Source: a virus
Virus record (IMG/VR): IMGVR_UViG_3300035698_006726
Coordinates: 1 to 25,728 of that record
Length of the DNA stretch: 25,728 nt
Strand: one strand, 5' to 3'
Shown: in pieces, positions 2,123 through 22,536 of the stretch
Position numbering within the stretch: position 1 is the stretch's first letter
How the letters are laid out: the number at the start of each line of letters is the position of its first letter
Made by a program: the position numbers and the translations under genes
The notes under the pieces: model-generated
Databases searched by the model: none
Told to the model about the DNA's origin: nothing
Seen by the model: only the letters and a program-made list of their open reading frames with translations

Positions 2123-2620
2123 TTATTTTATTCCTTTCAAAATGTGGGCTATTACGTCAACAGTCCAGCCGTTACCAAGCATTTTATAGCGTTGTGAGTT
2201 GCTTACATGGTTTGTGTAATTATCAGGTACAGTTTGAAGTCTTCCGCATTCAATAGGGGTTAATTTTCTACAATGCAAATTATCTATACTATCCCACTCA
2301 TGGCGATCATAACTACCACGACCAGAAGATCTTACGCATTTTGATTTTTCTCTTATTTTTAAAACAATAACATTGTCTTTTTGTACTGTTGTTAGAGTGT
2401 TCGTTTTTTCGTCTTTTCTACATTCTAGCCTTTGAGTTGTAAGCCCGGCTGTTTTCATTTTACCATCTTGTCTCTTACCATCAACAATATATCGACCTCT
2501 AAAAGCCCCACATTTAACTTTTGCACCAGGACCATCTTCTAAAATATTCTTTAGAAAAATCTTTTTATCTTTTGGCTCGTGGCGTTGTTGCATAACTGCA
2601 CTTGATGTATTAGCCACCAT
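2123..2620 (-). CDS. C-terminal half of a C5 cytosine DNA methyltransferase (catalytic half absent)
   Basis: The C-terminal 50 residues are a clear match to motifs IX and X of C5 cytosine methyltransferases: RKLTPIECGRLQTVPDNY (about 118-135) and QRYKMLGNGWTVDVIAHIL (about 143-161). The part before (about 20-85, ending NTLTTVQKDNVIV) resembles the target-recognition region of phage Dcm-like enzymes. The motifs that bind AdoMet and the PC dipeptide catalytic loop are missing here and are not encoded in any frame immediately upstream. A full enzyme is usually 300-400 aa; this one is 165 aa. ATG 2620 has AAGGGG just upstream and an in-frame stop lies six codons before it. The gene overlaps its upstream neighbour by 70 bases. 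It is either a remnant or the second subunit of a split enzyme (as in AquI-type methyltransferases), with the catalytic subunit elsewhere. Confidence 0.8.
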   Translation of the reverse strand: MVANTSSAVMQQRHEPKDKKIFLKNILEDGPGAKVKCGAFRGRYIVDGKRQDGKMKTAGLTTQRLECRKDEKTNTLTTVQKDNVIVLKIREKSKCVRSSGRGSYDRHEWDSIDNLHCRKLTPIECGRLQTVPDNYTNHVSNSQRYKMLGNGWTVDVIAHILKGIK

Positions 2621-8744: not shown

Positions 8745-9143
8745 TTATACAGATTGTTTTTTCTTTTTCAAGGCTTTTCGGTATTTATTCCAAGGCTTTG
8801 AAGCAAACAACCTAACAGCTCTATAAAAGGCCCGTCGCTTGCTTGGTCTTACTTTTTCGTATCTCATACAAGCAAGAAAGATTTTATCCGTTCTGGCTCT
8901 CGTAAAAAAGCCGTTATAATAAAACCAGTCATGGATAACAGCCGAGTTTAAAACATCAGGATCAAAACGATTATATAACCAGATCAGCCACCATGGAATT
9001 GATGCGCCATCTGTCCTGAATCCTTTAGGAATTATATATGTTTTGCCATTGATGCTGAAGAAAAAATCTTTTGTGAGTGCTTTTTTAAATTCTTTGGTTA
9101 TATCGTCAGAAAGAACAACATCTTTTGGAATGTATATCTTCAC
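8745..9143 (-). CDS. DUF1353-family phage protein
   Basis: The 132-aa protein shows the family hallmarks: GFRTDGASIPWW (about 41-52) and AVIHDWFYY (about 68-76) with a later TDKIFL segment. DUF1353 proteins are common near lysis and tail genes of phages. Conserved Asp and His residues suggest metal binding or an enzymatic activity, but the function is not established to my knowledge. The start overlaps the lysozyme stop as ATGA. It is the last gene of the late operon before the terminator. The C-terminus is very basic. Confidence 0.85.
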   Translation of the reverse strand: MKIYIPKDVVLSDDITKEFKKALTKDFFFSINGKTYIIPKGFRTDGASIPWWLIWLYNRFDPDVLNSAVIHDWFYYNGFFTRARTDKIFLACMRYEKVRPSKRRAFYRAVRLFASKPWNKYRKALKKKKQSV

Positions 9144-9556
9144 TTAAATTTGCCTGATAAAAATATCTTTGCAACTCGTTTAGCTCTTCCAGGCGAATCT
9201 TCACGAAACCATTTTGAATCCAAAGCTTCTTTGTATGATTCTCTATAATTCCCAGCTTCAAGAGCTTTCAGCATTTTCTTAAAACCTCTTAAAGAATCAA
9301 TACCCATTTGGAAACACATAACGAATAAAGCCTTTTGTCTGCTTTCATCTAACCCACGCCACCAGCCTAGATAAAAATCTAAATATTCAATAGTTTTCTT
9401 TTCGTCATTTTCATATAAAGCCCAAACAATTTCTTTGCTTTGTTTAATCGCTATATTATGACCTATTCCTACCGTTGGAATACCTTTACTGTCAACATAA
9501 GGGATTTGATGAAAACCTTCTTCACGAATAAGATGTTTTTTTACTATATCATCCAT
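9140..9556 (-). CDS. T4-type lysozyme (GH24 endolysin)
   Basis: The 138-aa enzyme carries the GH24 catalytic triad in the usual spacing: Glu13 in REEGFHQIPYVD, Asp22, and Thr28 in PTVGIGHN. The C-terminal half has ALFVMCFQMG and SKWFREDSPGRAKRVAKIFL, the typical substrate-cleft helices. It cuts the glycan strands of peptidoglycan at the end of infection. There is no signal peptide, so it should need a holin. The small membrane protein encoded immediately upstream is the obvious candidate. Its stop overlaps the DUF1353 start. Confidence 0.93.
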   Translation of the reverse strand: MDDIVKKHLIREEGFHQIPYVDSKGIPTVGIGHNIAIKQSKEIVWALYENDEKKTIEYLDFYLGWWRGLDESRQKALFVMCFQMGIDSLRGFKKMLKALEAGNYRESYKEALDSKWFREDSPGRAKRVAKIFLSGKFK

Positions 9557-9769: not shown

Positions 9770-10161
9770 TATAATTCGCTTTCAATGGCTTGGATAAGTT
9801 CTTTCTCATCTTCTAGGGTTAAAAGACTAATATCTATTATAACAGGTTTTTCAGGATATGGATAAGTTGTTTTAACATTATTTACAGCGTTATCAAGTTC
9901 GTTGTTGTTAATTAAAGATAAACCTTTCCGTGTTAGTTTTGCAACAATAGGATCTACAGTCTTGACATATAAAGGTTTTCTGTTATTAATCTGCTCATAA
10001 AGTTCTAATCCATAGCGATATGTAAATCCGTAATTATCAAGGGCTTCTCTTGATTCTTTCAACTTAACAGCTTTATCAACTGCTAATTGTTCGGCAACAG
10101 TTCTCCCTCTTACTCCAACTTTACCAAGACCCGTACAAACTGCGATATGTTTTTCAACCAT
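9769..10161 (-). CDS. Hypothetical protein between the tail fibre and lysis genes, 130 aa
   Basis: I do not recognise this family. The protein is soluble with mixed alpha and beta character. A glycine-containing N-terminus (HIAVCTGLGKVGVRGRTVAE) is followed by helices and an acidic C-terminal helix (LTLEDEKELIQAIESEL). Its ATG overlaps the stop of the large fibre gene (TAATG). Position immediately after the main fibre is where fibre-assembly chaperones often lie, so that is a possibility, but no motif supports it. Confidence 0.55.
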   Translation of the reverse strand: MVEKHIAVCTGLGKVGVRGRTVAEQLAVDKAVKLKESREALDNYGFTYRYGLELYEQINNRKPLYVKTVDPIVAKLTRKGLSLINNNELDNAVNNVKTTYPYPEKPVIIDISLLTLEDEKELIQAIESEL

Positions 10162-12852
10162 TATTCTGTTCCTTTATAACCCCATGCTTCAATTCGTACA
10201 CCATCAGCAAAGTATTGACCTGCTCCATCAGGATAAAATTTAATTCCTGTTATAACTCTAGTAGAATAGTAATGTCCATGTGAATGTTCATGTATATTAT
10301 ATATATTATCAATATCCATTGTCCAAGATGTTCTATTTACAGTATCAGCATATCCAAATAATCTAAATTTTCCTGCTTTCATAGGTAAAATACTTGTGTA
10401 TTTTGACAACGGTATATAAGTTCCTGTTGAACTAGCTTCATATGAAGGAGCTGTATTTGTATCAGCGTCAGCAATCAGAGAGTATTTATAAGAATCTTCT
10501 CGATAACCATTAACATCTTTTAACAATGCTCGACACGTTGTATTAGAATCAAAACCTAAAAAAATCATTCTAAATTCTATATAATCATAATCAGCACTTA
10601 AAATGTCTGTACCTAAAAACTCAATGGTATCTGTAGTAGTTCCGACAACATCAACTGCACCAAGTAAAGTATAATTTGTGTAGCCACCACCGCCAGCCTG
10701 ATATGAAGCTAAACAATAATTTGCTGTATTCGCATAACTAACTTGGAATATAGCACTCTCACCCTCTTTAAGTGAGTCAACGCCTACAGCTAGAGTTATC
10801 GTTAAATCAGAAGCATTTTTGTTTACAACATAGAATAAAGAGCCATCAAGAGCCTCTGTTGGTGTTGGTAGTGTAATTGTACCACTTGCAATATTAACGA
10901 CCTGTAGAATGTTTCTATCGGCTATGGCAAGAGTTTTATTTGATGTTACTGCAACCTCTGCTTTAACACCCAAACTAGTAAATTCTAAAGCTGTTTCTCC
11001 TGAATTTACTTGAGCTATGTATCCAGCTTTATCTGTGTATGCTGACGGTGTATCATCTAAACCTGTAAATTCTGTAACACCACTAGAGCCAACACCAGAA
11101 CCAGCCGTTGTATTAGGAACAAAACCACGTAAATCAAGATAACCTGTTGTAGAATTATAATCCCAATCTGTACCGTTTTTCTTAACTGTGTAACGACCAA
11201 TTAAAAATCCAACACCTGTAAATGAGGAAGGTATTGTATAAACATCTCCTCCATCTTTATTCTTCAAAGCATCTTTTTCTTTACCATATGACTTTGACGG
11301 TAGATTCACCATTATTTGTGAAGCCGTACCTGTTTTATTAATCACACCCCAGACAACTAAATTAAACCAGTCTCCGTTTAGACTATCACCCAAAGATGTT
11401 TCTGTTATTGTGTTCAGGTTGGTAACAGGTTTATAAGCTGTAGTTGGGTCATTTACTATAAACGCACTCTTTCCAGTCGCCATATCATAAGCTGGAAAAG
11501 TTTGCTCGTGCATTTGCAAAAGTTTACCTTCATTATTAGAAAAATAAACATCACTAGGGTCTACTGAAACAGATAAAGAACCTGTTGCTCCACTTACCCA
11601 TGTTGCTGGCAGTGAGCGAATTTTTGTACCTATATGAACAACATGACCCGAGTCCGTATCAGCTAAATCATTATTTATATTTTGATTTTTCAAAGCTCCA
11701 TAGGTTTGCGTATATGTAGCTGTTTGTAATAGCACCTTTGCAACTTTTATATGTTCTACTGCTGGAAAACCGCCTGTACTAACAGTTAAAACTGAGGTTG
11801 AGCATAAAATGTAAATATAGTTTAATTGTGGCGTAGCATCTGTTCCAGCCGTTAAAGCAACCGTTACAGGAGTTGATACATCTAACAATTTAAAGCCTTC
11901 ACTACAAATCATTGTTAAATTATCAGAACCATCACCAGCAGACAAAGAACCTGTAATATCAGTCCCATCACTTGTAACTAAAAACTTTAAATTCTCTCTC
12001 ATTATTCCATTAAAGAAATTTTCGAATGTATCTTCTTTGCTACGTCTAACATTTACATTTATAATTCCATCTGTAGCATCAACTGTAATTGTGCCACCTA
12101 TAAATATTTCATATGCTGGAAACGGTGGAGAAGTGTTTGTTAATTCGCCAGCTGTTGTTGCACTTAGATATAAAGGTTTACCAGAGTCGTAACCGCTTGT
12201 GTCAATTCCTCTAAGCTTACCTGTTCGCATGACAATACCAACTGTATTTGTTGGAATTTCCATTGTTGTCATTAATACGCCATTGCCAAGACCAACGAAT
12301 GTATCTGCTTTTGCTAAAACAATTTGCTGATAACCACTAGACACGCCATCAACACGAACAGCTTTACCATCTGTAATAGTAGAACCTGTATCATTACGAA
12401 CAAGAATATACATTTCTTGACCGACTTGCATCACAGGACCAAGACCTGTTGGAATATCTAAAGTTAAATCTGTCGCATTCCATGTAATTTCTTGACCGTC
12501 TTTAAAAGTAATACCTTTCACATTAGTTAAATCAAAATTTGCAAAGTCAATATTTGCTTTAACAGGATTTAAAACGCCATTAACCCATGTTGTGTCGTAA
12601 TCATCAGCACTTGTTTTTTTTTAATATTTGATCTGTTGTGCCACCAAGAGGAACACCTTGCCCATCTGTTCCATCTGTTCCATCTGTTCCTTTTAAACCA
12701 CCATAAGGAAGGTCATTCCAATAAACAACACCATCGCCTATTTTAAAAAGATCTGTGTCAAGCTCAACACCCATTTCACCTTGTGCCAGTAAAGGATTAA
12801 CGCTTGTCCATTCATAAGCCAAATCTCGTCTTAACTGTATATTAACAACCAT
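10161..12852 (-). CDS. Large tail fibre, split by a +1 frameshift at an A9 tract
   Basis: The first frame (12852-12604) encodes the common fibre N-terminus VNIQLRRDLAYEWTSVNPLL, a KIGDGVVYWNDLPYGG segment, a collagen-like GTDGTDGTDG tract and GGTTDQILKK, then runs into TGA. The second frame is open from 12614 to 10161 and starts TSADDYDTTWVNGVLNPVKA, the normal continuation of the GGTT.Q.L.K motif. Joining them after codon 79 (skipping one A of nine, 12614-12622) gives 896 aa. The rest includes an attachment-like beta region, a LDDTPSAY...ETALEF module and a C-terminal receptor-binding part. The start ATG 12852 has GGAGGT 7 bases upstream. It could be phase variation, transcriptional slippage, mutation or a homopolymer error. 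Confidence 0.85.
12614..12622 (-). other. A9 homopolymer at the tail-fibre frameshift
   Basis: Nine A on the coding strand (T on the plus strand) lie exactly where the two fibre frames must be joined. Tracts of this length are prone to RNA polymerase slippage and to replication indels. Eight or eleven A would give one open frame. Confidence 0.85.
12662..12688. repeat. Three tandem copies of CCATCTGTT in the fibre gene
   Basis: Exact 9-bp units encode Gly-Thr-Asp repeats, a short collagen-like (Gly-x-y) stretch of the fibre shaft. Copy number could vary without a frameshift. Confidence 0.8.
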
Positions 12853-13177
12853 TGACATTACCTCCATCGATAGGATTTATTCCACCATAAAAAGAACCAG
12901 CAATACCGCCATCTAAATTTATTGCGTATTCTGTACGACCACCGCCACCACCTTGAATGATTGTTTTAGTTTTTGGTATTTCTTTGAAAATAAGACCTGT
13001 TTCTTTTCTGTCAACAACAAGCATTTTTCCTTTATTGCCTTTGAATTTTTCAGGTGTATCTTCTAGCGCAATAAAAGTTTGAGGTTCTTCAATAACTTCT
13101 TCAATGACTTCTTCAACAGGTTTTGAGTTTTCTAAAGCTTGGCGAGGCTTACCGATAATTTCAAAAGCATCAATCAT
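12842..13177 (-). CDS. Fibre-region structural protein, 111 aa
   Basis: The protein contains an acidic repeat (EEVIEEVIEE, about 22-32), a FIALEDTPEKF...ETGLIF module (about 35-66) and a glycine-rich end (IINGG-like, with GGIAGSFYGG, then NPIDGGN). The LxDTP...ETxLxF module is a widespread fibre motif and recurs inside the large fibre encoded next. The GGI...IDGG ending is common in phage structural proteins. The start overlaps the previous stop as ATGA. Its final codons contain GGAGGT, the ribosome-binding site of the large fibre. It probably belongs to the tail-tip or fibre complex. Confidence 0.65.
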   Translation of the reverse strand: MIDAFEIIGKPRQALENSKPVEEVIEEVIEEPQTFIALEDTPEKFKGNKGKMLVVDRKETGLIFKEIPKTKTIIQGGGGGRTEYAINLDGGIAGSFYGGINPIDGGNVNGC

Positions 13178-13846: not shown

Positions 13847-14740
13847 CTATTGAAACTTATATTTAATTATAACAACACCTGAACCGCCATTGCGACCCTC
13901 ACCAACATCAGAAGGCCAACCGCCTCCGCCTCCACCTCCGCCACCTGAGTTTACAGTACCAGCAACAGCAGTCAAAGTTGAGCCATAGTTGTCGCCTTTA
14001 CCTCCGCCACCTGAGCCACCAGTACCACCTATACCTCCAATAGACAATCCAGCTCCACCTCCGCCTCCACCAGCTCTTGTAACACTAGATCCTGTAATAG
14101 ATGAAGCAATACCAGAACCACCAGTACCTCCGTTGGCAACAGAATAATTACCACCTGTTCCACCTTTACCTCCACCGCCTCCGCCAGCATAAGAACCTCC
14201 ACCATTAGCTCCGCTCCCACCAGAATTACCTTGTCCTGATGTGCCAGAACCTGGAGTTAAACTTCCGTACCCAGACTCACCACCACCAGAACCGCCTGTT
14301 ACTCCATTACCATCTGGGGAGTCATGAGCACCACCACCACCGCCACCAGCTGAAGAAATACCATTAAAACTTGAAGCACTACCTGAACCACCTGGAGCAC
14401 AAAGAGAAGTGTTACCTCCTGAGAAGTTAGTAGTTGAACCACCAGCTCCGACAGTCACACCATAGGATTGTTTTGCAACTGACATACCAGAAGCTGTTCT
14501 ATATCCTCCAGCTCCACCGCCTCCGCAACCATACTTATTACCTCCACCAGCCCCACCTGCGATAGTAAGATATTCAACAACAGCATCATCGCCTAGATTA
14601 ATAATTTCAAACGTACCAGATGAAGTAAAAGTGTGAACCTTATAATCGCCACTAGTTGTGATAGAACCACCTGTTGCTTCTGTGAAAGTTTCAAAAGTAT
14701 TAAAAGCATTAACACCAATTTTTGACAACATTAAACTCAT
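13847..14740 (-). CDS. Glycine-rich adhesin/receptor-binding protein, 297 aa
   Basis: An N-terminal segment with YKVHTFTSSGTFEI and VEYLTIAGGAGGG is followed by about 200 residues dominated by Gly, Ser and Asn in runs such as GGGGGG, ending with GSGVVIIKYKFQ. This is the standard layout of phage and bacterial glycine-rich domains that fold as packed polyglycine helices, as in the gp38-type adhesins of T-even phages. It probably contacts the host receptor or caps a fibre. I chose ATG 14740 (ATGA overlap with the previous stop) over an earlier ATG at 14797, which lies inside the upstream gene. The Gly-codon repeats make this region prone to recombination. Confidence 0.85.
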   Translation of the reverse strand: MSLMLSKIGVNAFNTFETFTEATGGSITTSGDYKVHTFTSSGTFEIINLGDDAVVEYLTIAGGAGGGNKYGCGGGGAGGYRTASGMSVAKQSYGVTVGAGGSTTNFSGGNTSLCAPGGSGSASSFNGISSAGGGGGGAHDSPDGNGVTGGSGGGESGYGSLTPGSGTSGQGNSGGSGANGGGSYAGGGGGGKGGTGGNYSVANGGTGGSGIASSITGSSVTRAGGGGGGAGLSIGGIGGTGGSGGGGKGDNYGSTLTAVAGTVNSGGGGGGGGGWPSDVGEGRNGGSGVVIIKYKFQ

Positions 14741-15843
14741 GTAGTTAAATCTCCACCAACAGCCCATGTATCGGTTGCTGTTTTTGTGATTGACCACATA
14801 GCTTTATTTCCACCAGAAACAAGACCGTTTCTATTGTTAAAAGTTACATCAGCCCCAGACATTGTAACTAATCCAACCCCTAATTGTTGAAACAGTATTG
14901 AAGTTCCAACTGGATAAGTGACACTTGCATTAGTGGGTATTGTTAAAGTAATTGCCGATCCATTGTTTAAAGTAACTAATTTATTACTATCTGTAAGGAT
15001 TGTTGTATAAGTTGTTCCTGTTTGTTCGTTTATTGTTATCTCTGTAGATGAAAAACCTAAATCATCAAGTCCAACTTTTCTTTCATCTGACTCACTATCA
15101 TCATAAATAACAAGCAAATCATTTGCACTGTCAACAGCAGATATAGTTGAGTATTCATTTATAAAACCATCTTTTAATTCATCTGCACCAATATTGCTTA
15201 TTGTGTTACTATCTGCATCTATAGTCTTGTTCGTTAATGTGTTTGTTGATGTTTCTGTTAGTCCGAAAGGTTGATTTCCGTCTGGTTGCCCATATTCAAC
15301 AGCACTCAAACCACTATCAACAGCAACGCCACCCTTGACAGTTACAGTTGTTTCTAGTGGGGATATAGAAGAAACAACGCTTTCAACATAAGCAACACCG
15401 CTTGAAGTTTGAGTTAAATAAACAGCCCTGTTGGCAATATATATAGCCGTTTTATCGCCATCAACAACAAAATCTGTGGCGTTTGAATAAACAACAGAAT
15501 CACCTTCAGTTGTCCACCAAGAAGAAGCTGGGGCTGTACTTTTTAAAGTTCCGTCAGTATTTAAAGCAACAGATAATCTTGCATTCAAATTTGATGCTGT
15601 TCCTCTTGCTGTTACAATTTCAGCTGTTATTGTTGTAGGATCTGAAACAGTCCAGCCAGCACTTTTATAAAGATACCAAGTATCTAAATCTGTTCTAAAA
15701 CAAGGTTGTCCGACAACTGGTGTTGCTGGAAAAGATGTTGCTGAAAAATTGCTTTTTAATGTAGCAAAATTTTCATTGAGCCAAGTATACAAACTACTAA
15801 AAGGAGTTGTTCCTGAAACCCATGTGTTAAAATCCGTAGCCAT
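14737..15843 (-). CDS. Tail fibre protein, 368 aa
   Basis: The N-terminus (MATDFNTWVSGTTPFSSLYT) leads into short phage-fibre motifs: QPCFRTDLDTWYLYKSAGW, then TLTNKTIDADSNTISNIG (a very common fibre segment about residues 203-220), and a C-terminal beta module with TLTIPTNASVTYPVGTSILF and MSGADVTFNNRNGL. Such proteins form trimeric fibres attached to the tail hub. AAAGGAG precedes the ATG by about 7 bases. It follows the J-like hub directly and precedes the glycine-rich adhesin, suggesting a two-part fibre with a separate tip. Confidence 0.85.
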   Translation of the reverse strand: MATDFNTWVSGTTPFSSLYTWLNENFATLKSNFSATSFPATPVVGQPCFRTDLDTWYLYKSAGWTVSDPTTITAEIVTARGTASNLNARLSVALNTDGTLKSTAPASSWWTTEGDSVVYSNATDFVVDGDKTAIYIANRAVYLTQTSSGVAYVESVVSSISPLETTVTVKGGVAVDSGLSAVEYGQPDGNQPFGLTETSTNTLTNKTIDADSNTISNIGADELKDGFINEYSTISAVDSANDLLVIYDDSESDERKVGLDDLGFSSTEITINEQTGTTYTTILTDSNKLVTLNNGSAITLTIPTNASVTYPVGTSILFQQLGVGLVTMSGADVTFNNRNGLVSGGNKAMWSITKTATDTWAVGGDLTT

Positions 15844-15844
15844 T

Positions 15845-18800
15845 CTAGACTCCTTTTACTTCTAAATTAACGGTTGCATTAACGCCTGTACCGCTTTCGT
15901 TGAAAACATAAACTATAAATTGTGTCGATTGTATACCTACTGTTGCATAATAAGAGTTATTCCCAAGCACTGTTGGAGAAACGCTATATTCAAGAATATA
16001 TGAAAAGTCGATTGCTGACAAGGTAAACGTCGTACCTGTATTTGCAATGGATTCATTATATAAAGTTTTTTCTTGCGCTTTTGTATCAATAGATAAAGGC
16101 AAACTTGAGAACTCAAATTGAGTAACAGGTATATCAATCAACGTTTCCCACTTAAAAGCAACATAACGAGCTGAAAAATCAGCAACACCAACCCATAACT
16201 GCCATGAACCAACAGGGCTTGGAATTTCTGAATGCCTGAAATATGGTCTGTAGGTTGATTCACTTGTAATTTTTAAATCAGTATCGTTCGGATATGTTAG
16301 ATCTGTTCTTGTTGCAATAGAAACATCCGTAATCATTGTTGTATCTATATTTGTTGAATAGGTCGCATCCATTCTTATTCCAAGAATATCAACAACACTT
16401 CCAAGGTCAAATTCTTCTGTTATATAACGACCTTCTTCACTATCGCCCTTATAGTCTGTTATATAATCATCTGTATCTGTAAGACTTCCAAGTTCTGTAT
16501 CTGTAAGGCTTGGAATCCATTTTAAAACAATAGGTGATCCTATAGGCAAAAGATTAAAGACTTCTTGAGCATCAATAATATAAGTAGGAATTTCATCACG
16601 ACTAACAACAAAATTTAAAAGACTTGTTATGTCAACAGTAATTGTTGAAACAGCTTCAGTTTCAGAATATTGAAGTTGATTATTAACGGCTTTAATCATA
16701 AAGCGATATGTTCCGTCAGCTGGTGGATTCCATGAAGCCTCGTTTTCTTGAACACGATTGACAACAATCTGTCCTGAATCCCATTCAACGCCCCTTCTTA
16801 TTTCATAACCACGCCCTTCGATGTTTCCGATATGATCCCATCTAAAAGCAATCTTTTCCCCTTGTTGCCATGCTTGGAAGTTTTCAATATCTGCTGGTAA
16901 AATATCACTACCTAGCAATGTAATGTTTTTGTTAACACCATCGTCAGGAGTTTCTCTAGAAACAACAGCAACAACATAAGTTTGATTTTTTGAAAAATCG
17001 CCAGAAATTAAAGTTTTTGGCTCATAAACACGACCGTTTTCAATCCATACGTCAGCATCTAATTTTTTATAGTAAACATCCCAGAATAAAGCTTGTCCAA
17101 GCCATGAACCAGAAATTAACGACGTTCCTGATCCGTCGGCTGATTTGTTCCAAACTTCTTTAAGTTGTAAATCTTTTACAGAAACAAGAGCTGATTCTGT
17201 ATAAATAGGAACTTGAGCTGTATCAAAATAAACTTCTGGTTGGTATTCAAGAGCGGTAACTTTTCTTAATTGATCAGATTGTCTTGTTATATTCGTTATG
17301 CGCATTGCTTTTGTCTCGCTATCAATAACACCGAATGAATACATATTGTATTTTTCCATGTCTTTTGTCAGAGCTGTAAGCAATGTTATAGTGTTCGTTG
17401 TATTTTCAGTATTAAGAGCTTCAACAGTTTCTCGTTCATCAAGATTGTTTTTAAATGTGAAGTGATAACGAACGCCAGCCGTCATTGTTACTTCACGATC
17501 TATTTCAATATGTGTCGTGTCAATAGCTTGAACGATACGACCACCAAAACCATATTGAGGAACGTCATGTTGAACATCTACAACGTCGCCTATAATACAA
17601 GCCAGACTATCTATATCAGCCATCCAAGAGCTTGTTAATGTTAGATAGCGATTATTATTCAAAAGTCTTTTACCATGCCGTATAGCGTTTGTACGACTAA
17701 CTTGACCAACAAGATTAACAGATATTTTTTTTACTTCTGTTTCTGTCGTATCAAAATTGTGTTGATAAACTTCAAGAGGTGTTCTTGCATAATCAAGCTC
17801 TTTGTCGTAATAAAACACTTCCGCAACATTCGCTCTCTGTGATTGCGGTAAGTATGATTCTTCATATGAATTATAAAGAATATTTCCAACAGTAAAGAGG
17901 AATCTTTGAACCGCTTCATCTGGTTTATCAACTATAGGTAAAAACTTATTACCAGCCTGAAGAACATTTGCAAAACCTAAAGCACCAACAGTGTTAAGAG
18001 CTTGTCTTATGTTGCTTGCGCTGTCAAAATATATATTACATTGATAACCTTCATCGTCGCAATAATCAGCCCATTCTTGGAAATAACTATCTACAAGACG
18101 ACCAGCACCGATTCCCCCAGCATATTGAGTATTACTTAATAAATCAGCTGAAACCCAGCTAGGATTGTTTGCAGAATTACCATCTAAAAAAGTGTTTCTA
18201 CTAGCCAAACAAGTAACTTTAGGTAAACCGCCAGAAAGTTGATTTGTTGCAAGAGCTTTAACAGCTAAAATTGCAGTGTTAGGATATGAGAAATTATCGC
18301 CAGTAACAATTTCTTGAAAATATTCAAAAAATGTTGTGTTATATTGACCGACAACAGGCAACTCAGAAAAAGAAACTTCTATTTCATATTGATCAGGAGG
18401 TAAACCGCTTGCAAGATTGATAACGTGTCTTTTTACAGACTTTGTTGAGTATGAAATTGTATGTATTTGCTCAGTCCATGTGCCACCAGAAGCAAGCCTA
18501 TAACGCACCTTAACATTGACAACAGATGCATCAATAGATCCGTTAAAGTTTGCTTGAAACATACCTATAGGAAATTGCAAGCCAACAACAAGACCTGAAA
18601 CAGAATTTCCTTCTGTCTGGCGTGTTATTGTTGCGCCAAAAATAATCTCAGCATTTACGCCAACGTCAGATCTAACATCTGCAAAACCACTAACAGCCGT
18701 TTGATCATTCGTTCCAAGTCTTGTTGAAAGCGTAACATCTTTGTATAACGCTGAATCTTGATTATTAATTTCTATATCAGAAACACTGTCAATTTCATGT

Positions 18801-19438
18801 CCAGCAATAGCATATAAAATATTAAGATATTGATTGTCGCCAGATAAAGAAATGAATTTTGATATTATAGGCGGTGTAATTCTTGTTGTTCCGTATAAAA
18901 CAGGTAATATGCCACCTTCAACGGTAGGGTTGCTTTGTGAATCCCAGCCGTAAGTTGGGCTGTCTTTGAAAGCATCCATGCCGAATTTTGGAAAATCAAA
19001 CTTTGGAAGGTTAGAAGGGAAAATTGCATTAACTAACATACCGCCAGCAACCATCAAGCCAGCTGATAGGAAAGCACCACCCATAGTCAAACCACCTGTT
19101 TCAGTAAGTAGACTTGGAAACATTGCACCGACGGCATAAGGCGCAAGAACTACAACGGCAATCATAGCAACCATTGATATAATGTTTTTACCACCATCAC
19201 CACCACCTCCATCATGAGGTGTTAGGCAAAATGAAACGCTATCAAAAACAGTTAAACTTCTGCTTAAATCTTTCGTTATGTTGCCATTTATAGCAACAGT
19301 TAGATCAAAGCCATGGTTTTCTTTTAGATGAAGATGTTCATTAATAGCATTCTGAATTGTTATAGATTTTGATACGTCAATAATTTCTCTTGAAGCTATA
19401 GGATCAAAAGGATTTTTTATAAATACTAACCTTGCCAT
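15845..19438 (-). CDS. Tail tip/central hub protein (gpJ-like) with fused gpI-like N-terminus
   Basis: This is the largest gene (1197 aa from ATG 19438; a longer frame from 19468 overlaps the upstream gene). Residues about 1-75 form a small beta-grasp-like domain ending in a Gly-rich linker. Two hydrophobic segments follow (about 87-103 and 118-140), as in lambda gpI-type tail assembly proteins. After that comes the J-like hub, beginning near NPTVEGGILPVLYGTTRITP, with the LNILYAIAGHEIDSVSDIEI region typical of gpJ. A fibronectin-III-like segment lies around 840-940. The C-terminal part should hold receptor-contacting or fibre-attachment domains. It closes the tail tube and triggers DNA release on contact. 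The order after K- and L-like genes supports the call. Confidence 0.88.
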   Translation of the reverse strand: MARLVFIKNPFDPIASREIIDVSKSITIQNAINEHLHLKENHGFDLTVAINGNITKDLSRSLTVFDSVSFCLTPHDGGGGDGGKNIISMVAMIAVVVLAPYAVGAMFPSLLTETGGLTMGGAFLSAGLMVAGGMLVNAIFPSNLPKFDFPKFGMDAFKDSPTYGWDSQSNPTVEGGILPVLYGTTRITPPIISKFISLSGDNQYLNILYAIAGHEIDSVSDIEINNQDSALYKDVTLSTRLGTNDQTAVSGFADVRSDVGVNAEIIFGATITRQTEGNSVSGLVVGLQFPIGMFQANFNGSIDASVVNVKVRYRLASGGTWTEQIHTISYSTKSVKRHVINLASGLPPDQYEIEVSFSELPVVGQYNTTFFEYFQEIVTGDNFSYPNTAILAVKALATNQLSGGLPKVTCLASRNTFLDGNSANNPSWVSADLLSNTQYAGGIGAGRLVDSYFQEWADYCDDEGYQCNIYFDSASNIRQALNTVGALGFANVLQAGNKFLPIVDKPDEAVQRFLFTVGNILYNSYEESYLPQSQRANVAEVFYYDKELDYARTPLEVYQHNFDTTETEVKKISVNLVGQVSRTNAIRHGKRLLNNNRYLTLTSSWMADIDSLACIIGDVVDVQHDVPQYGFGGRIVQAIDTTHIEIDREVTMTAGVRYHFTFKNNLDERETVEALNTENTTNTITLLTALTKDMEKYNMYSFGVIDSETKAMRITNITRQSDQLRKVTALEYQPEVYFDTAQVPIYTESALVSVKDLQLKEVWNKSADGSGTSLISGSWLGQALFWDVYYKKLDADVWIENGRVYEPKTLISGDFSKNQTYVVAVVSRETPDDGVNKNITLLGSDILPADIENFQAWQQGEKIAFRWDHIGNIEGRGYEIRRGVEWDSGQIVVNRVQENEASWNPPADGTYRFMIKAVNNQLQYSETEAVSTITVDITSLLNFVVSRDEIPTYIIDAQEVFNLLPIGSPIVLKWIPSLTDTELGSLTDTDDYITDYKGDSEEGRYITEEFDLGSVVDILGIRMDATYSTNIDTTMITDVSIATRTDLTYPNDTDLKITSESTYRPYFRHSEIPSPVGSWQLWVGVADFSARYVAFKWETLIDIPVTQFEFSSLPLSIDTKAQEKTLYNESIANTGTTFTLSAIDFSYILEYSVSPTVLGNNSYYATVGIQSTQFIVYVFNESGTGVNATVNLEVKGV

Positions 19439-19809
19439 TTCCAGAATCCACTTACTTTTTTTGACCAATAAGGACTATCAAGTCTTTCAATAATGCTACC
19501 TGTTTTTGTTCTAGTATGCAAGAACTTGTATTTGCTCAAGCATACGCCAAAATGTTGCGTAACCTTTGGAAACTTTGGGTTTATAGCAAAACTTACAGCA
19601 AGTCCTTCATCTGGTTTTTCGCATTTTTCCCATTGATTAATGACAGAATCAAAGTTGACAGCAATCTTTTCAATCTCAAAAGCAAGAATTTTATAATCAG
19701 GTATGTCATGCCCGAATTTCTTCATGGCAAGAACAAATAAACCCCAGCAATCAAGACCTTTCAAATCACGACCACCATTGACAAAAGGTATTCCTAGAAG
19801 GTTATTCAT
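19426..19809 (-). CDS. Tail-tip NlpC/P60-type peptidase (gpK-like)
   Basis: The 127-aa protein carries the NlpC/P60 catalytic Cys in GLDCWGLF (Cys 21) and His in TQHFGVCL (about 86), with a possible third residue at the later FLHTRT His. In lambda-type phages gpK combines a Mov34-like and an NlpC domain; here only the NlpC part is present. It would cleave peptide cross-links locally so the tail can pass the cell wall. I chose ATG 19809, since the codons before it lie in the L gene. Its end overlaps the J-like start. Confidence 0.85.
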   Translation of the reverse strand: MNNLLGIPFVNGGRDLKGLDCWGLFVLAMKKFGHDIPDYKILAFEIEKIAVNFDSVINQWEKCEKPDEGLAVSFAINPKFPKVTQHFGVCLSKYKFLHTRTKTGSIIERLDSPYWSKKVSGFWKWQG

Positions 19810-20782: not shown

Positions 20783-22536
20783 TATGCACCACCGATCACT
20801 TCACGCAATCCACCTTTATTATTTTGAATTGCATCTAAAACTATATTTATAACCATATCGCCAGCGCCAGAATTGCTTGCTGTTGAACTTGTTGCTTTAA
20901 CATCTTGACCGCTTTCGTTGCTGATATTTACTTGAACAGAACCACCACCACCGCCACCGCCTGAAACTGGCGATATTCTTTCAATTCCATTTTCAGCAAA
21001 GATATAAGGCGAACCAGATCTTGTTCCCCTACCCATGACAGGCTCAGTTATTAAACCACCATTTGCATGAGGTCTTACAGGAGGCAATGGAACACTAGCA
21101 CCGCTTGCAGTTGTTCCCATTGGTGTTGAAGATTGACCAGACATATTTTCAGGCATGAAGCTACCAGCAAAACCAGTTACAGCTTGCAAAATAGGTTGTG
21201 CTATAGTTGCTTGAATAATCATCTTAGTTAACATCTTGCCGAATGATTCAAGAACGTTTCCAAAGGATCGATCAGCGCTCCAAACCATATCGTTTAAAGT
21301 TCCTGAAAAAGAATCATCAAAATTCTGTATTCCTTCAAGAATTTTATTACTCATTGATTCAGAACCATCTTCAACATGATTAAAAAATTTATCTATATCT
21401 TCAGTTGCTTTTGCTGTTGGAAGTTCTATGTCACCAGTTTTCATATTTGTTTTTAATTTATTTGCATCTGCAACCATTTTTTCTGTTGTTGCGGTCCAGG
21501 TATCACTCACATCTTTATTGAGTTGTTCGTTTGTTTCTCCTATTTCAGCAAACTCTTCTTTTATTATATCAACAGCCATAGAAAACTCGCCACGACCAAT
21601 TGCAACCATAGCACCAGAAAAAGATTCAACAGAAGTTAAAGCCTCGTCAATAGTTGCTTTAACAGCATGAAAAACAGTTAATATTGAATTTAAAGCTATT
21701 CCAGCAACCTCACTAGCTGCTTTCATTCTTTCTAAAGAATCACCACCTTGAATCATACTCTCAGTAAAAACATTAATTGAAGGAACTAAATCATTTGCCA
21801 GAATGTTTTTAAATGCTGTTCCTGATTCAATCACTCTAAAAATATTATCGTTTAGAATTTCAGCACCTTTTGACAAATCAGTATCTAAAACAATCCCAAG
21901 ATTCTTTGCATCTTCTGCTGTAGCTTCAAGACCTTTACGCCCCTCATTAAGCATAGGAATCATTGTTGAACCACCACGACCAAATAAAACCATGGAAACG
22001 GCTGTTTTTCCAGCGCCATCTCTCATTTTAGAAAAAGCGTCAGCAATATCAAGCATGACCTCTTGGCTATTTCTTAAGCTTCCGTCTTGTTCTCTGACAG
22101 TAATACCCATAGATTCAAAAGCTCTTGATTGCTCACTAATTCCTTTTGATGCTTGGAACATACTTCTTGAAAGCATTTGAACCGCAAGTACTGAAGTTTC
22201 AAAGTTCGCACCAGCCAACTCGGCTTGATAAGACAAGACAGATAAATCTTCAGTTGTTATGCCTAGTTGTTGAGATTTTTTCGCAAGCATGTCATTAACT
22301 TGAGTAAGCCCTCTAACCATACCAACAAGAATTTTACCAGTGAAATAAACACCCATAACTTTGCCAACAGCAAGGTAAGCTGATTGAAGTCTATTCAATG
22401 AGTTTTCTTGTTTGTTAACAGCACCAGAGGCTTTTGTAAAAGACTTAGTGACCTTATCAGCTGATTGAGTTGCTTTGTTCGCACCAGATACGGCTTTGTT
22501 TGCGTTAATTCCTATTTGTAAATTATAGTCAGACAT
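20782..22536 (-). CDS. Tail tape measure protein, 584 aa
   Basis: The N-terminal part is helical and alanine-rich (INANKAVSGANKATQSADKV), followed by the conserved-looking LGITTEDLSVLSYQAELAGA and SMVLFGRGGSTMIPMLNEG stretch common in phage tape measures. The C-terminal section (about 420-584) has the IMIQATIAQPILQAV-type hydrophobic helix and a Gly-rich HANGGLI...PYIFAENGIE segment of lambda-H-like proteins. It sets tail length and is ejected on infection. At about 0.15 nm per residue it predicts a tail near 90 nm. The start overlaps the T-frame end (ATGTCTGA). Confidence 0.92.
   Translation of the reverse strand: MSDYNLQIGINANKAVSGANKATQSADKVTKSFTKASGAVNKQENSLNRLQSAYLAVGKVMGVYFTGKILVGMVRGLTQVNDMLAKKSQQLGITTEDLSVLSYQAELAGANFETSVLAVQMLSRSMFQASKGISEQSRAFESMGITVREQDGSLRNSQEVMLDIADAFSKMRDGAGKTAVSMVLFGRGGSTMIPMLNEGRKGLEATAEDAKNLGIVLDTDLSKGAEILNDNIFRVIESGTAFKNILANDLVPSINVFTESMIQGGDSLERMKAASEVAGIALNSILTVFHAVKATIDEALTSVESFSGAMVAIGRGEFSMAVDIIKEEFAEIGETNEQLNKDVSDTWTATTEKMVADANKLKTNMKTGDIELPTAKATEDIDKFFNHVEDGSESMSNKILEGIQNFDDSFSGTLNDMVWSADRSFGNVLESFGKMLTKMIIQATIAQPILQAVTGFAGSFMPENMSGQSSTPMGTTASGASVPLPPVRPHANGGLITEPVMGRGTRSGSPYIFAENGIERISPVSGGGGGGGSVQVNISNESGQDVKATSSTASNSGAGDMVINIVLDAIQNNKGGLREVIGGA

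Follow-up and report, generated by a model that had tools for sequence, protein, structure and literature searches.

Two reading frames on the minus strand of this viral DNA meet at a run of nine A residues, and the question is whether they represent one tail-fibre gene broken by a single nucleotide, a slippage switch of receptor binding, or two separate genes. The window, by which we mean the whole stretch of DNA analyzed, spans the entire 25,728-base record, possibly a genome fragment, and is AT-rich (35% GC). Its minus strand encodes a siphophage tail module comprising a head-tail adaptor, neck proteins, a tape measure, minor tail proteins and a J-type protein. The order on this strand runs from the J homologue through several small tail-associated ORFs to the broken fibre gene at approximately 12867-10161, and a lysozyme and a DUF1353 protein lie downstream of the latter. 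The main features are as follows:

15845..19468, minus strand: central tail fibre/tip attachment protein J homologue (profile matches), upstream of the broken fibre gene
12604..12867, minus strand: 5' part of the fibre gene (frame 1), with an Mtd_N domain (PF18454), a GTDGTDGTDG linker, GGTTDQILKK, and NKC followed by TGA TGA
12621..12623, minus strand: TAA in frame 2, directly upstream of the A9 tract, barring entry to frame 2 from further upstream
12614..12622, minus strand: A9 tract (T9 on the plus strand), the meeting point of the two frames and the longest homopolymer in the window
10161..12620, minus strand: 3' part of the fibre gene (frame 2), 817 aa from ACA 12614, open from 12620 with its stop at 10161
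9140-9556: lysozyme, downstream of the broken fibre gene

We consider it probable (about 0.83) that the two frames are one accessory (side) fibre gene, belonging to a siphophage that has a lambda-type J, and that the gene was broken when a homopolymer changed in length by one nucleotide. That this is an accessory rather than the main receptor-binding fibre we infer from its position downstream of J. A glycine-rich protein (PF21722, phrog_2295; 13847-14797, minus strand), possibly another adhesion component, is encoded between the J and fibre genes. Elsewhere in the window, the match to a C5 cytosine methylase at 2123-2620 (minus strand) covers the C-terminal half alone (PF00145 positions 175-322 of 324); the frames upstream, followed to 3020, showed no N-terminal catalytic part, and the product may be truncated or a real half-protein.

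Frame 1 encodes 87 aa from its first ATG at 12867 and 82 aa from ATG 12852, which is preceded by GGAGGT and is the likely start; the N-terminal product is thus one residue shorter than the 83 aa given in the first-pass annotation. The frame reads MVVNIQLRRDLAYEWTSVNPLLAQGEMGVELDTDLFKIGDGVVYWNDLPYGGLKGTDGTDGTDGQGVPLGGTTDQILKK-NKC, ending in ...GGTTDQILKKNKC and then TGA TGA. It matches the PF18454 (Mtd_N) profile at 44 bits against a curated gathering cut-off of 26.3, and many phage tail-fibre profiles match it as well. An N-terminal Mtd_N domain is shared with Bordetella phage Mtd and other PF18454 proteins, although with Mtd itself only this N-terminal domain of 37 residues is in common, and the profiled ORFs of the window gave no sign of a diversifying retroelement. 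The domain apparently need not be fused in frame to a fibre, as small Mtd_N ORFs of 64 to 84 aa, measured stop to stop, occur in three viral contigs (L004 4588-4770, L005 5001-5153 and L010 5001-5165). The tandem repeat coding for GTDGTDGTDG (12662-12690, minus strand) lies about 40 nt upstream of the A9 tract and is a second slippage-prone stretch, built of in-frame nine-base units.

Frame 2 opens inside the A9 tract and begins (T)SADDYDTTWVNG. It can be open only from 12620, because a TAA occupies 12623..12621, and the two frames can therefore meet only within approximately 17 nt containing the tract; the break falls in a homonucleotide run, either A9 itself or within a few bases of it. The geometry proposed from the letters alone, with two frames meeting exactly at nine A (12622..12614, minus strand), was thus borne out, as was the statement that a single-base change yields one protein of 896 aa, the joined length from ATG 12852 (901 aa from ATG 12867). 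It was also correct that a -1 ribosomal slip would not restore the frame, since the equivalent change, one A added to the tract, runs into a stop about 13 codons past it.

Within frame 2 no start codon occurs before GTG 12521, which lies 31 codons past the tract and has no Shine-Dalgarno sequence, and the conserved SADDYDTTWVNG motif lies upstream of every frame 2 start codon. An independent start for frame 2 was rejected on this basis, the only candidate coming after the conserved motif and lacking a ribosome-binding site; the second frame begins within a fibre motif with no credible start of its own. Residues 15 to 548 of frame 2 are related to a fibre in viral contig L003, and residues 22 to 227 to annotated phage tail-fibre proteins. 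An AlphaFold model of the 817-aa part had a mean pLDDT of 30 and was unusable. A 30-base segment of the tape-measure gene (21646-21675, minus strand) resembles the beginning of frame 2 at 87% identity, probably by chance.

In other phages SADDYDTTWVNG directly continues GGTTDQILKK. A six-frame protein search found the joined 48-aa junction to be continuous in 37 phage records, for example as GGTTGQVLAKNSNTDYDTEW in S-SRP02 and GGTTGQVLSKVDGTDYNTTWV in RDJL Phi 2, and likewise in Phosso; in viral contig L012, GGTTGQVLAKNSNTDYDTTWVNG lies within one ORF of 316 aa. The claim that GGTTDQILKK and the start of the second frame together form a standard, uninterrupted fibre motif is upheld by these records. 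The large domain is also found in single proteins. Its nearest relative, in L003 (43% identity over the alignment, with about 177 aa before the match), lies within one longer ORF whose N-terminal part is different, and Pseudomonas phage Rollin has the domain in a longer single ORF annotated as tail fiber protein. Both parts of the window gene are thus homologous to one continuous protein, at the junction in the 37 records and L012 and across the domain in L003 and Rollin. The L003 gene (4473-6692) joins its relative of the frame 2 domain to an N-terminal part that contains a collagen-like stretch, and the boundary of this mosaic lies not far from the position of the GGTT motif in the window gene.

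We examined 120 GGTT-x-Q-x-LKK junctions from viral contigs, and none is broken at an A-run or has an out-of-frame homopolymer. The longest run among them, an A8 in L087, is in frame; two junctions end soon after the motif, and their runs are of 2 and 4 A. A scan for a similar motif together with a long A-run returned 14 contigs, none of which is a fibre junction. No break at the A-run common to relatives was found in either set. No close relative of the phage could be confirmed through the J protein in viral contigs, and none was found through the fibre in reference genomes; the distant homologues are intact, and the presumed ancestral tract length of the window gene is judged from them. Because SADDYDTTWVNG precedes any frame 2 start and the junction is continuous in other phages, we regard the locus as one gene and not two, which agrees with the first-pass annotation in its central claim of a single tail-fibre gene split by a one-nucleotide change at A9.

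How much of this could be coincidence was assessed from the composition of the window and from control positions. Under a first-order Markov model of the window approximately 4.9 A/T runs of at least 9 are expected and one is observed, so the A9 tract by itself is expected by composition and needs no selection in a genome of 35% GC. Abutting ORFs are also common (581 of 14,331 control positions in long open frames lie at such a junction, about 4%), and against this background of ordinary gene junctions they prove little alone. A census of homopolymer frame junctions in 1.12 Mb of contigs gave only two runs of at least 9 inside long frames, too few to be informative. What chance does not account for is the exact coincidence of the break in a conserved motif with the window's longest homopolymer, which makes slippage the likely cause, be it natural or introduced in the data.

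A/T runs of 8 occur five times in the window and runs of 7 many times, and the large genes that contain them stay open; no other convincing case of a homopolymer frame break was seen in the window. The open frames at the five runs of 8 suggest that the consensus is generally sound, though it could well contain one error at the longest run.

In the reading that we favor, the Mtd_N domain with its short collagen-like linker and the large C-terminal part belong to one protein, separated by a single-nucleotide length change; the break and the common ancestry are visible in the sequence itself. The site of the break, exactly at the longest homopolymer, suggests that it arose by slippage, whether in phage replication or in amplification, sequencing or assembly. 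As written, the gene would yield mainly the 82-aa N-terminal fragment and no fibre, and some transcripts with an altered A-run could give the full-length fibre through ordinary RNA-polymerase slippage, with no sign of selection. A majority genome with a broken fibre that is needed for infection would be unexpected; the fibre must be dispensable, the break leaky, or the sequence in error. Between a real loss-of-function or polymorphic allele and a consensus error we divide the probability roughly in half; the first-pass annotation had itself named a homopolymer error as an option. Everything seen is explained by either a consensus error or a slippage mutation that occurred once.

We also considered two ways in which slippage at the tract could matter to the living phage. 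In the first, the A9 is real and polymorphic in the wild phage population, and both fibred and fibreless virions persist through transcriptional or replicative slippage, a natural bet-hedging counterpart of the loss of stf in laboratory lambda; we think this unlikely. A slightly less probable proposal is that the tract is kept by selection, with slippage of RNA polymerase or of replication producing a mixture of fibred and fibreless virions as a phase-variable or bet-hedging form of receptor binding. Poly-A recoding of this size is real: in Yersinia pseudotuberculosis a 9-A run in tssM3 gives 15 to 25% frameshifting, and in Citrobacter rodentium an 11-A run rescues tssM1 (PMC4256274), which makes leakage through transcriptional slippage plausible in principle. 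Moreover, fibre loss can benefit lambda in a biofilm-like setting (PMC2762979), and the A9 sits exactly at the break. However, neither a -1 ribosomal slip nor a single added A, which are the commonest slips, joins the two frames. The recoding event in the tssM genes is an added A (PMC4256274); transcription insertions in homopolymers are mostly of single nucleotides, homopolymer deletions being rare in E. coli (PMC5574713), and at runs of A7 to A11 insertion exceeds deletion at least twofold (PMC6260861). Nor is the tract or the split common to any relative found, and in a genome of this composition no selection is needed for an A9 to occur. RNA folding near the tract was no better than that of shuffled sequences (z = +0.70), which speaks against a stimulatory structure, and inspection found no Shine-Dalgarno-like hexamer close upstream of it. 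Among the papers examined for phase-variable homopolymers in phage-encoded fibres, only host-receptor cases and the lambda stf work came up. An evolved switch should exploit the favored direction of slippage and be retained among relatives; the A9 does neither, and such a switch is unsupported, as is the phase-variable or slippage-controlled device put forward in the first-pass annotation.

Least probable is that the locus comprises two genes, with frame 1 a small Mtd_N protein in its own right and the fibre initiated independently after it: stand-alone Mtd_N ORFs do occur in L004, L005 and L010, and phages commonly have ORFs that abut or overlap, but the GGTTDQILKK that closes frame 1 is one half of a motif found unbroken elsewhere, and the only route into frame 2 by its own initiation would begin at GTG 12521, beyond SADDYDTTWVNG.

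A single fibre gene broken at a homopolymer finds its nearest parallel in the stf gene of lambda. Laboratory lambda carries stf as orf401/orf314, frameshifted relative to the intact gene of Ur-lambda, and lacks side fibres (PMC3509688), a loss through which infection persists (PMC3509688, PMC2762979). In a biofilm-like setting, passage of side-fibred lambda left stf mutated in 19 of 21 isolates; 15 of these 19 were frameshifted, and homonucleotide runs were the site of every indel except one (PMC2762979). Like stf, the window gene lies downstream of a J gene and is split into two ORFs by a frameshift; unlike stf, its break is near the 5' end, at A9, and may be a sequence error. The comparison is offered as one of working alike, in the position and the manner of the break, and may be taken in that sense, with no claim of membership or of homology to Stf.

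In tssM1 (A11) and tssM3 (A9), as in the window gene, two parts of one gene lie in different frames on either side of an A-run of comparable length. In those genes, however, the added A is the favored event and the products have been measured, whereas in the window gene the favored direction fails to join the frames. With the 'GGTTGQVLAKNSNTDYDTTW' linker-motif fibres of many phages the window gene shares the same motif, ending a collagen-like linker at the same position in the protein, but those fibres are uninterrupted at the motif in all cases examined and the window gene is interrupted.

If the break is a consensus error, it means that split fibre genes in metagenomic phages need a homopolymer check before they are called two genes. 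If instead the allele is real, it would show side fibres being lost through homopolymer slippage in the wild, something so far known mainly from laboratory lambda.
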